Below, piece after piece: positions 24,983 through 28,746 of a DNA stretch of 64,000 nucleotides. The translations under genes were made by a program, and so were the position numbers. The stretch spans positions 1 to 64,000 of the forward strand of contig NZ_CALPCC010000007.1 of NCBI RefSeq assembly GCF_943192905.1, in the 5' to 3' direction. The notes beneath the pieces are model-generated. The model saw only the letters and a program-made list of their open reading frames with translations. It was not told the DNA's origin and searched no databases. Within the stretch, counting starts at the first letter, position 1. Every line of letters starts with the position of its first letter. The DNA comes from Adlercreutzia murintestinalis. GTDB taxonomy: Bacteria > Actinomycetota > Coriobacteriia > Coriobacteriales > Eggerthellaceae.

Positions 24983-25058
24983 GGTCGGGTAGCTCAGTTG
25001 GTAGAGCAGCGGACTGAAAATCCGCGTGCCGAGGGTTCAAGTCCCCCTCCGACCACCA
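24983..25058 (+). tRNA. tRNA-Phe (GAA)
   Basis: The sequence folds as a cloverleaf. Acceptor stem GGTCGGG / TCCGACC has one G-T pair; the D arm is GCTCAGTTGGTAGAGC. The anticodon arm GCGGA-CTGAAAA-TCCGC reads anticodon GAA, and the T loop is TTCAAGT. The discriminator base is A and CCA is encoded. One A-C mismatch lies in the T stem. Confidence 0.97.
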
Positions 25059-25091: not shown

Positions 25092-25430
25092 GTGCTTCTC
25101 ACGCCAGCACCACCCGAGCGCCTCCGGATCCCGTTTCGCGCAACAGGGATACCCGAGCGCGCTGCACTCTGTTACAATCCACCATGCCAGAAAAGCGTTC
25201 TTCATTGAAGGAATGCGAGAGAGAACTTAATAGCTCGTGTGAGCACGCGCGGGAATTTAAACAGCGCTCAGGAGGGCATCTGCCTTTCAAGGCTGTTTTG
25301 ATTCATGCGCTTGTGCTCATGCTCTTACATTCTTGCTTTTCTGGCGAACTGTGGCGGATGCCCTCCTTGTCGCCAGGATAGTGCGTGGGCCTCTTCCACA
25401 ACCATAGAAATTGGGGACGAAAGGAACACT
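25092..25430 (+). other. Long leader of the surface protein gene
   Basis: No gene is supportable in these 340 bp. A TACAAT -10-like element lies at 25173-25178. AGGAGGGCATC (25270-25280) is perfectly complementary to GATGCCCTCCT (25357-25367), a long-range 11-bp pairing upstream of the ribosome binding site at about 25420. If transcribed from near 25185 the leader would be about 245 nt. Confidence 0.5.
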
Positions 25431-26906
25431 ATGCACGCAAGAAGAACGGCGCAGTGGCCAAAACGGATACTGTCCATCCTCTGCGCGATCGCGCTGACGG
25501 CAGGAGTGGCACTTCCCTGTGCCGCTTTCGCTGGCGCTGACGAAGCAGAAGGGCCCACAGCCCTAGAGGTCAGCGACACCACCGAGCCCACCACGGAACA
25601 GCCGGATGTGACCGCGCCGATCAGCGAGGGAGATACTGCTGACACCGATGCTGAGACCACGGACACGGACGCCACCGAGTCCACCGATGCTGCCGATACC
25701 GATGCGGACGCCGACGATGAGGCCGCAAATACAACCGTAGACGCGGATACTGCTGATACCACGACGACCGATGCTGACAAAGCTGATGATCCTCAGACGA
25801 TACCAAGTCTTCCTGCGAGCGCCGAGACGATAACGAGCGCCCCGGGCACATGGCAGGATATCCCCGTCTACTCCTATCCTTTAGCCAATGGAAAGAAATC
25901 CCTTGATGTGACGGTGCGTGCAAAGCTGAATGCGAGCATTGCCCCAGCAGGATCCACGGTATTCGCAACGCTTGAGTACGGCGGATTCGATGACGAAAGC
26001 GAAGTTACAGACGTCTTGAACGGCTTCAATACGTGGGCATTCATCACGCTGTTTGTTAATGGATCTGCTATCGATGGCAAGGGTTTCGACGAGGTTGAAG
26101 TGACGCTTCTTCGCACTCCGATCAGCTGGAAGTCCATCTATGAAGAGCCCACATACGCGACCGCTTCTAACCCCATCTATGTGTATATCACCGATAGCAC
26201 GGGAACTTTGGCACGGTTTATCGCTAATGGTTCGCCCATCACGTTCGCACCCCTGAATTCCGGCCGTGCCGGAGCCACCGCAGAGTTCACCATTTATACG
26301 GGCTATCCCGTTAAGGACGATACAACGAGCGATGCAGGCTCCGATGCCGCGAACAACCTGACCGTGACCGGCAACACCGGCATCAAGGCCAGCGGCGACC
26401 TACAAGGGCCGAACATCCCTGAGAACGCTGACATCGAGATCGCCACTTCGGTGGTCACCTCCGGTGCTGCCTTCGACGACCTCAACGATACCATGGGTGA
26501 CAGCCGCATCAGCGACGTGTACGAGATCACGCTGCTGGTGAACGGCAAAGAGGTGCACGACGGATTCGGCACGCTGACCATCTCCATGCCCATCGATGCC
26601 CAGTACAACGGCCATATCATCATCATTTACCACCGTCATCAAGACGGCTCCATCACCACCTCGCACGCACTGGCGAAAGATGGCTACGTCACCTTCACCG
26701 TGACCGACCTGTCCTCGTTCGCACTGGCTGACGGCGGCCTGCCGGAAGCTGAGGCCGAGCAGACTTCCAATGTGGGCGCTACGCTGACCCAGACCGGCGA
26801 CGAGGCTCCCTTCGCTGTGCTGGCGCTGGTCGCTTGCCTAGCCGCCTGCTGCATGGTTGTGGCTCTCCGCTTCGGCTTCAAGCCGAAAGGCCAGCACGTG
26901 AAATAG
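25431..26906 (+). CDS. Cell-wall-anchored surface protein with Thr/Asp-rich stalk
   Basis: A 491-residue secreted protein. It has an N-terminal signal peptide (basic start, hydrophobic core, cleavage near CAAFAGA). A Thr/Asp/Ala-rich low-complexity stalk (about 45-125) and a beta-rich region follow. The C-terminus is a sorting signal: LTQTGD, a hydrophobic segment and a basic end. LTQTG departs from canonical LPxTG at the Pro position. No sortase gene is in the window. The frame is open upstream, but the ATG at 25431 has a GAAAGGAAC ribosome binding site and starts the signal peptide. The ligand or function is unknown. A fragment of a second copy lies at 28511-28594. Confidence 0.85.
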   Translation: MHARRTAQWPKRILSILCAIALTAGVALPCAAFAGADEAEGPTALEVSDTTEPTTEQPDVTAPISEGDTADTDAETTDTDATESTDAADTDADADDEAANTTVDADTADTTTTDADKADDPQTIPSLPASAETITSAPGTWQDIPVYSYPLANGKKSLDVTVRAKLNASIAPAGSTVFATLEYGGFDDESEVTDVLNGFNTWAFITLFVNGSAIDGKGFDEVEVTLLRTPISWKSIYEEPTYATASNPIYVYITDSTGTLARFIANGSPITFAPLNSGRAGATAEFTIYTGYPVKDDTTSDAGSDAANNLTVTGNTGIKASGDLQGPNIPENADIEIATSVVTSGAAFDDLNDTMGDSRISDVYEITLLVNGKEVHDGFGTLTISMPIDAQYNGHIIIIYHRHQDGSITTSHALAKDGYVTFTVTDLSSFALADGGLPEAEAEQTSNVGATLTQTGDEAPFAVLALVACLAACCMVVALRFGFKPKGQHVK

Positions 26907-26996
26907 CGCGCTGCCTGGCGGCATGCCTCAGTGGCACACCGCCGAAGGCATTGCTGGTACCGTAAGGGCTCGCCTCATGCGAGCTGAACCCTGATA

Positions 26997-27028
26997 GCGG
27001 GACTGGGAACGAGCGTTTCCAGTCCCGC
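26997..27028. terminator. Strong bidirectional terminator
   Basis: GCGGGACTGG (26997-27006) and CCAGTCCCGC (27019-27028) form a perfect 10-bp stem that can extend inward, followed by TTGCTTT. It lies between the convergent surface protein and DUF4143 ATPase genes. Confidence 0.8.
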
Positions 27029-27033
27029 TTGCT

Positions 27034-28368
27034 TTACTCTCCCTTTGCGGCCAGGTCCAGCAAATGCGTCAAGCGACCGGCCATGAAGAGCGGGACATTC
27101 AGAAGGCCATCGTCATAGGAAAGATTCTTCAGGGAGAAGCGCACAGCAACCGGCGTCTGCGGGCCAAATTTCTCGCGATACTTACGCAAGCTCTTGGCAC
27201 GCACGTTCTCGCCCGCTTTCACCTCAACGGGCACGATGTCGTTCTCGTGCTGGATCAGGAAATCAACTTCATAGCGCGGATTGTCCACCGCCCAGTAGCG
27301 CGGCTCCCCATCCAACTGCGGCCGCAGCTCTTGCATCACGTAGTTCTCCGCCAGCGCCCCCTTGAATTCCGTGAACAGCCGATCCTGCTCCGTGATAGCC
27401 GACGGCGCCAGCGCACAGAACCGCCGCAGCAGCCCCACATCTAGCAGGTACAGCTTGAACGCCTGCGGCTCGTCGTAGGCTGAAAGCGGTAGCCCTGGCT
27501 TGCTGGCCCGTTTCACCTTCGCCAGCAGATCGGCATTGACCAGCCACTGAACGGCGTCCTCGTATTCGCGGGCTCGCGCGCTCTCACGCACCAGGCTGTA
27601 CAGGAACTTCTTATTCTCCCGCGCCAGCTGCGACGGCATCGACTGCCACACCAGCTGTATCTTCGGGAACAGGCTGTGGGCCGCATGCTTCTGGAAGTCC
27701 AGCGCGTACAGGTTCAGCAGATCGCTCAGGATGTTCTGCAGCGCCGTCACATCGCGCGCTTCCACCCAACTGAGCACCGCCTCGGGCATCCCGCCGGTCA
27801 GGAAGTACAGCCGCAACTTCTCGAGCAACGGATTGAAGAAGGCATCCGGCAGCGGTTCAAGCCGATCCACGCCGCGCAGATAGGCCGCCAAATGCCCGTC
27901 ACCATTCGCATCCAAGAATTCCTCGAAGGACATCGGGTACAAGTCAAGCACATTCACCTTCCCGACCGGAAACGACGCGGGGTGCGAAAGCGCCAGCCCC
28001 AGCAGCGACCCCGCGCAGGCCACGTCGTATTCGGGCGCGTCCTCGCAGAAGTATTTCAGCGCCGCGATGCAATCCGGGCACGCCTGGATCTCATCGAACA
28101 CGATGAGCGTCTTGCCGGGGAAGATGGGCTGCGCGCTGGCTGCTGTCAGGTTCTCGATGATGCGTCGCGGGTCTTTGGTAGTTTGGAAGAACTGGTGATA
28201 TTCCGTGTTCAGGTCCAAGTTGAAATAGGCTAGGTTCTCGTAGGTCCGACGGCCGAATTCCATCAAGGCCCAGGTCTTCCCCACCTGACGCGCGCCCCGT
28301 AACAGCAGCGGTTTATGGTGCGGATCCTGTTTCCAATCCGCCAGCCGATCCAAGATGAGCCGTTCCAT
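27034..28368 (-). CDS. AAA+ ATPase with DUF4143 domain
   Basis: A 444-residue protein of the ATPase/DUF4143 family: AAA domain with Walker A GARQVGKT (25-32), Walker B LIVFDEIQ, and sensor CAGSLLGL. The C-terminal DUF4143 half has a restriction-endonuclease-like core (YEVDFLIQHENDIVPVEVKAG). Members are widespread, often patchy and of unknown role. The ATG at 28366-28368 has an AAAGGAGC ribosome binding site; the frame is open to 28521. It is preceded by a striking palindrome at 28401-28464. Its position between a surface protein gene and a fragment of a duplicate suggests late arrival. Confidence 0.88.
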   Translation of the reverse strand: MERLILDRLADWKQDPHHKPLLLRGARQVGKTWALMEFGRRTYENLAYFNLDLNTEYHQFFQTTKDPRRIIENLTAASAQPIFPGKTLIVFDEIQACPDCIAALKYFCEDAPEYDVACAGSLLGLALSHPASFPVGKVNVLDLYPMSFEEFLDANGDGHLAAYLRGVDRLEPLPDAFFNPLLEKLRLYFLTGGMPEAVLSWVEARDVTALQNILSDLLNLYALDFQKHAAHSLFPKIQLVWQSMPSQLARENKKFLYSLVRESARAREYEDAVQWLVNADLLAKVKRASKPGLPLSAYDEPQAFKLYLLDVGLLRRFCALAPSAITEQDRLFTEFKGALAENYVMQELRPQLDGEPRYWAVDNPRYEVDFLIQHENDIVPVEVKAGENVRAKSLRKYREKFGPQTPVAVRFSLKNLSYDDGLLNVPLFMAGRLTHLLDLAAKGE

Positions 28369-28400
28369 AGGCTGCTCCTTTCCTCGCTGCTGGCACCACG

Positions 28401-28464
28401 ATATCACGGAAATATACAAGATTCCGTGATGGAAATCACGGAATCTTGTATATTTCCGTGATAT
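28401..28464. repeat. Perfect 30-bp-arm palindrome with four half-sites
   Basis: Arms 28401-28430 and 28435-28464 are exact reverse complements separated by GGAA. Each arm is itself near-palindromic: ATCACGGAA, about 10 AT-rich bases, then TTCCGTGAT. This gives four copies of the 9-bp half-site (28403-28411, 28422-28430, 28435-28443, 28454-28462). It lies 33 bp upstream of the DUF4143 ATPase start and is AT-rich relative to its surroundings. It could be an operator or the end of a mobile segment. Confidence 0.9.
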
Positions 28465-28510
28465 TTCGGGAAAATGATGCGACCGCTGCCCTTCTTCGCT
28501 CAGTGGCTGC

Positions 28511-28594
28511 ATCACGTTCACCGTGACCGATCTATCCTCGTTCGCGCTGGCCGACGGTGCCCCTACGCTTCAGCCCGCTCACCTACTGCGGTAA
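28511..28594 (+). pseudogene. Remnant of a second surface-protein gene
   Basis: This frame reads ITFTVTDLSSFALADGA before a stop at 28592-28594. The nucleotide sequence is nearly identical to 26690-26745 of the surface protein gene (VTFTVTDLSSFALADGG), with mostly synonymous differences. It has no start codon or anchor. It appears to be the decayed 3' part of a former tandem copy. The rest of 28595-28746 holds no recognisable gene. Confidence 0.8.
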
Positions 28595-28746
28595 CCCATG
28601 GGGTTTCTGCACAATGAGCACACAGCAGCGCGGCGAAACAAGTAAACTACTGGGTACGGATTCTACGCGTTGGTTCGCGCCATACCGCTGGCTGCGGAAC
28701 CGCAACGCGCAACGGGCATCTCAAGAAGGGGCAGGCTGATCTGAGC

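Follow-up and report, generated by a model that had tools for sequence, protein, structure and literature searches.

The perfect palindrome that precedes a DUF4143 ATPase gene in Adlercreutzia murintestinalis is one instance of a rule that runs through the PDC-S01 family, and not a peculiarity of this locus. The geometry of the upstream repeats is common to the members of the family, and the sequence of the array is private to each gene. Judging from sequence comparisons, we consider it probable that the palindrome is a private operator array of the ATPase, which would bind it and repress its own gene.

The palindrome occupies positions 28401-28464 of the stretch that we analyzed (64,000 nucleotides, positions 1 to 64,000 of contig NZ_CALPCC010000007.1; hereafter the window). 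As the initial annotation had it, the arms (28401-28430 and 28435-28464, 30 nt each) are 100% complementary; they flank a 4-nt centre, GGAA, and chance would not be expected to produce an inverted repeat of 30 bp without a mismatch. The symmetric array of four 9-bp half-sites described there could be located in full: ATCACGGAA is read on the plus strand at 28403-28411 (half-site 1) and 28435-28443 (half-site 3) and on the minus strand, i.e. as TTCCGTGAT on the plus strand, at 28422-28430 (half-site 2) and 28454-28462 (half-site 4). These form two inverted pairs with a 32-bp period, same-strand half-sites (1 and 3, 2 and 4) being exactly 32 bp apart. The palindrome does lie upstream of the ATPase start, at a distance from the ATG (first base 28368, minus strand; MERLILDRLADW) of 32 bp rather than the 33 bp originally given. 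A possible -10 box, TATATT, falls inside it (28411-28416, minus strand) with a poor -35 (GTGATT), and a stricter standard scan returned no sigma-70 promoter in the window array, with no convincing -35. In the 2.04-Mb genome, no second copy of the half-site pair was found, whether up to 3 mismatches or a spacer of variable length was allowed.

The gene itself (27034-28368, minus strand) encodes an ATPase of 444 aa with the predicted architecture AAA_14-wHTH-DUF4143 (PD-(D/E)XK), AAA_14 and DUF4143 being the domains matched. The protein fits the PADLOC profile PDC-S01 over nearly its full length (E=1.3e-174, residues 2-435), in keeping with the earlier hint at toxic or defence genes, and every other protein class tested matches PDC-S01 as well (E<=1e-56). 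The structure model (pLDDT 93) contains an AAA+ core, a segment that resembles a winged helix (about residues 234-308, as read from the secondary structure of the model) and a PD-(D/E)XK fold, the D, E and K residues of which are invariant or nearly so; modelled fold and conserved residues indicate an AAA+ ATPase with an intact PD-(D/E)XK nuclease in addition to a winged helix. The nearest solved folds are the archaeal ATPases 2qen and 2fna, the latter matched by sequence too, followed by ORC/Cdc6 and NLR-type ATPases; Orc1/Cdc6 bound to origin DNA is among them. A terminator-like stem-loop (26996-27029, minus strand) directly follows the stop codon, and several of the family's genera have sequences 80-87% similar to it, in some cases at contig ends.

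We surveyed a total of 192 related genes: 97 DUF4143 ATPase genes from Coriobacteriia genomes and 95 further genes that two collection scans, with the window's clade as seed, retrieved from 80 bacterial loci in eight phyla and 16 viral contigs. As a control, 198 neighbouring genes were processed identically. Upstream direct repeats (score >=10) were found in 71% of the 97 Coriobacteriia genes and 63% of the 95 further genes, compared with 10% of the 198 neighbours. The spacing of the repeats was 23 bp, 32/33 bp or the double of these in 62 of 69 and 48 of 60 cases, respectively, versus 5 of 20 in the controls, and direct counting of 12-mers gave peaks at 23, 46 and 69 and at 32/33, 64-66 and 99. 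The arrays consist of 2-5 copies, with about 47 bp between the end of the array and the ATG. No recognised array was present in approximately 22% of the non-redundant genes (36 of 161), and none was clear at the one archaeal DUF4143 case that we looked at.

A tree of 161 proteins accounts for the period with 9 changes, compared with 44 when the labels are shuffled. One half of the tree has 23-bp (or palindromic) arrays and the other 32/33-bp arrays; the window gene, with its 32 bp, belongs to the latter. The core in the window's clade (class I) is AAA(A/T)GTGTGAT or AATGTGAT, often GTGAT-N4-ATCAC, repeated at 32/33 bp, and is present in Bacillota, Bacteroidota, Synergistota, Fusobacteriota, Omnitrophota and others; the core of the window's TTCCGTGAT-GGAA-ATCACGGAA is identical to it. 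Relatives of one class-II gene carry one motif in 3 to 5 copies at 23 bp, e.g. CTCGAAAATCGAGT. Elsewhere, two near-identical upstream regions (loci L256 and L257) differ by the gain or loss of one 23-bp array unit, which shows that arrays gain or lose copies within short times.

Within a genome, the motifs are different. The expectation that the window's half-site would recur before other DUF4143 genes of the same genome did not hold: the two other full-length genes have repeats directly upstream, unlike the window's in sequence (GGGTAAAATAC-N9-GTATTTTACCC in one case and a GTTTGCAAAATAC-like word in four copies in the other). Overall, 1.3% of same-genome paralogue pairs had a common motif, the null value being 0.6%. 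One complete genome contains 25 DUF4143 matches; there, four copies of TCCCATTTCGTGAT, spaced by exactly 33 bp, precede its own gene and one more site is found elsewhere, and two other motifs of that genome occur at their own gene only. Between genomes, the motif is inherited with the protein. It is common to about 1% of pairs at <30% protein identity and to 57-68% at >70%; relatives above approximately 45% identity often have it in common, even across phyla, and those below 40% do not. Among cross-phylum pairs, scored at a looser threshold, the fraction was 47% at 45-55% identity versus 6% at 30-45%.

The same motif in different hosts, different motifs in the same host and the absence of a recurrent neighbour gene in the 16 annotated plasmid loci together point to a binder encoded by the gene itself, and the ATPase's own winged helix is, from these sequence relations, the likely one. 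The initial annotation had proposed a cooperative operator for a dimeric repressor. A dedicated operator-like array is strongly supported; a separate dimeric repressor is unlikely, since there is no conserved neighbour gene to encode it and the motif goes with the ATPase from phylum to phylum. We also looked for covariation between motif specificity and the winged helix. It was positive on all pairs; the mapping of specificity to the winged helix was dropped, as the signal became weak after removal of near-copies (rank 20 of 430) and the best window of the protein lay elsewhere.

A promoter could be recognised for 72 genes. The array overlies the predicted -10/start in 40 of these, precedes it in 28 and follows it in 4, which argues that the site acts as DNA. 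In the self-control that we propose, the winged helix of the ATPase would contact the array of its own gene, with one protomer or dimer per repeat and probably as an ordered oligomer on the array DNA; cooperative binding would repress its own gene, and an invader would lift the repression or turn the nuclease on. We infer all three steps, namely the ATPase as the binder, repression by binding, and relief or nuclease switch-on by an invader. A lead, and only that, comes from the DUF4143 gene TT_P0211 of Thermus thermophilus, which is reported to go up 6.6-fold with a plasmid in an Argonaute strain (PMC4406477). On pTT27 of T. thermophilus HB27 (L194, around 1470-1488), the palindrome TGAATGACTATCATTCA is located directly before the start of a DUF4143 gene that may or may not be TT_P0211.

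Class-I repeats with the same spacing also occur in phage contigs. Pairs of AAAGTGTGAT at 32/33 bp were found in 10 IMG/VR contigs (about four families), compared with 0 and 0 at the control spacings, and pairs of AAATGTGAT in 25 contigs versus 6 at the control spacing. All 6 control matches are inside long ORFs, whereas among the 25 about 15 lie between genes; the ATPase gene was present on only 2 of the 25 within the contig stretch examined. Neither the exact window motif nor one 23-bp class motif was found in IMG/VR phage contigs. Contigs with intergenic class-I pairs at 32/33 bp and no DUF4143 gene in the stretch examined are L284-L294, L297, L299, L301-L306, L312, L314 and L317. Some of the phage pairs stand directly before replication-type genes, as identified from sequence, and in L294, L301, L306 and L312 the gene that follows one common repeat block (AAATGTGATAAAACATATAAAAAGTCATTAGAAAAATGTGAT) changes from contig to contig, as if a promoter cassette had been reused. 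It is possible that these pairs are decoys, targets or phage operators. A bolder and rather unlikely extension is that PDC-S01 is a single-gene immunity with a private DNA barcode, in which the ATPase oligomer on its own array would be the self or resting state and matching phage arrays would act as titrating decoys or nuclease triggers.

The array and the ORF travel together. In four gene pairs from different genomes, with 89-92% DNA identity, only the array and the ORF are common, with no similarity in the 600 bp on either side; DNA common to different genera begins at the array and ends within approximately 30 nt of the stop codon. One pair (L109/L114) was partly withdrawn as a clean transfer because a 64-bp upstream stretch is also common to it. 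A general claim that the 3' end of the cassette lies inside the ORF was dropped too: class-I tails after ...GLALE vary, and class II ends at a conserved stop. In L098-L130, the tails after ...DRLIGLALE differ in length and sequence among close relatives, looking as if flanking DNA had supplied the stop codon. In the window, the ATPase and its array belong, together with a surface-protein-like ORF, to an accessory segment (25092-28603) adjoining a tRNA-Phe gene (24983-25058, plus strand); the segment is absent from a congeneric genome, a sister species, where the flanks are 84 bp apart. The surface-protein-like ORF (25305-26906) has a signal-like N-terminus and a C-terminal QTGDE motif with a hydrophobic tail.

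These borders, and the absence of the segment from the sister species, would suit a reading in which the array is a mobility or attack site, i.e. the nuclease acts at its own repeats, either as the end of a single-gene mobile cassette or as a target of the homing type, with regulation in a secondary role. The conserved catalytic residues and the phage contigs that have the same-spaced repeats without the gene speak for it as well. However, the gene's own motif is found downstream in 5% of cases against 1.5% in the control, almost never, so the repeats do not mark two ends; same-genome paralogues are at most 61% identical among the genes collected, unlike those of a replicating transposon; and the arrays track promoters. 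We therefore regard a mobility or attack site as unlikely. The same downstream figures (5% vs 1.5%) led us to reject a two-ended DNA transposon, as related terminal repeats at both ends were not seen, and a type II toxin-antitoxin module was rejected as the two adjacent genes are missing, with no recurrent neighbour in the 16 annotated loci.

A serious rival to be weighed is binding by a host CRP/FNR-type regulator. The core of the window's clade reads TGTGA-N6-TCACA, which is the classical CRP consensus, and the window has CGTGATGGAAATCACG. A CRP-like palindrome (<=1 mismatch) occurs in 31 of 76 class-I genes compared with 0.3% of shuffles, and the genome to which the window belongs contains 16 copies of CGTGA-N6-TCACG, compared with 3 of the reversed control. 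A host regulator of this type nevertheless seems improbable, given that same-strand GTGA pairs at 31-34 bp are present in 63 of the 76 class-I genes, 38 of them having no CRP palindrome, that the motifs of other classes are unrelated and yet just as regularly spaced, that paralogues in one host differ in motif, and that the full window motif is unique in its genome. Very improbable, in our estimate, is an action of the palindrome in RNA, as a leader hairpin, attenuator or terminator. A perfect 30-bp stem would fold strongly, and a promoter/terminator scan labels the palindrome terminator-like on the plus strand; against this, most relatives have direct repeats of the same period that form no hairpin, many arrays are upstream of the promoter, and Rfam gives only sub-threshold matches to eukaryotic miRNAs, models that fit any perfect hairpin.

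In the accessible portion of the report that names it, PDC-S01 is a predicted single-gene defence candidate, the fourth most common system across prokaryotes, with the ATPase fused to a PD-(D/E)XK domain and with validation pending for most such candidates (PMC12988326). As far as that portion goes, it is treated as a single-gene system with no mention of a DNA array (PMC12988326); in the present survey, most of the genes have one. Within the accessible parts of the little open-access literature naming DUF4143, COG1373 or PDC-S01, we found no DNA array tied to any of them. For a family that is among the commonest reported defence candidates and mechanistically uncharacterised, the private, travelling array is a first mechanistic handle: it predicts the ligand (the ATPase's own array) and the geometry (a unit every 23 or 32/33 bp). 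Private arrays would also give a reason why dozens of paralogues coexist with no cross-talk, and make the family a naturally occurring collection of many protein-operator pairs that are insulated from one another.

The best overall fold matches to the window ATPase, the archaeal AAA+ ATPases 2qen (PABY2304) and 2fna (SSO1545), agree with it at a low level (TM ~0.4-0.5). Orc1/Cdc6 initiators and their origin recognition boxes resemble the window family in combining an AAA+ ATPase and a winged helix with repeated sites; unlike them, the window family has an added nuclease domain, sites at its own promoter and one motif per paralogue. Autoregulated toxin-antitoxin operators and plasmid iterons are private promoter repeats with one motif per module and insulated paralogues. 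The window family is like them in its private repeats at the promoter and its insulated paralogues, and differs in consisting of one gene with no antitoxin partner, in its presumed binder, an ATPase-nuclease, and in a period that is set by the protein clade.
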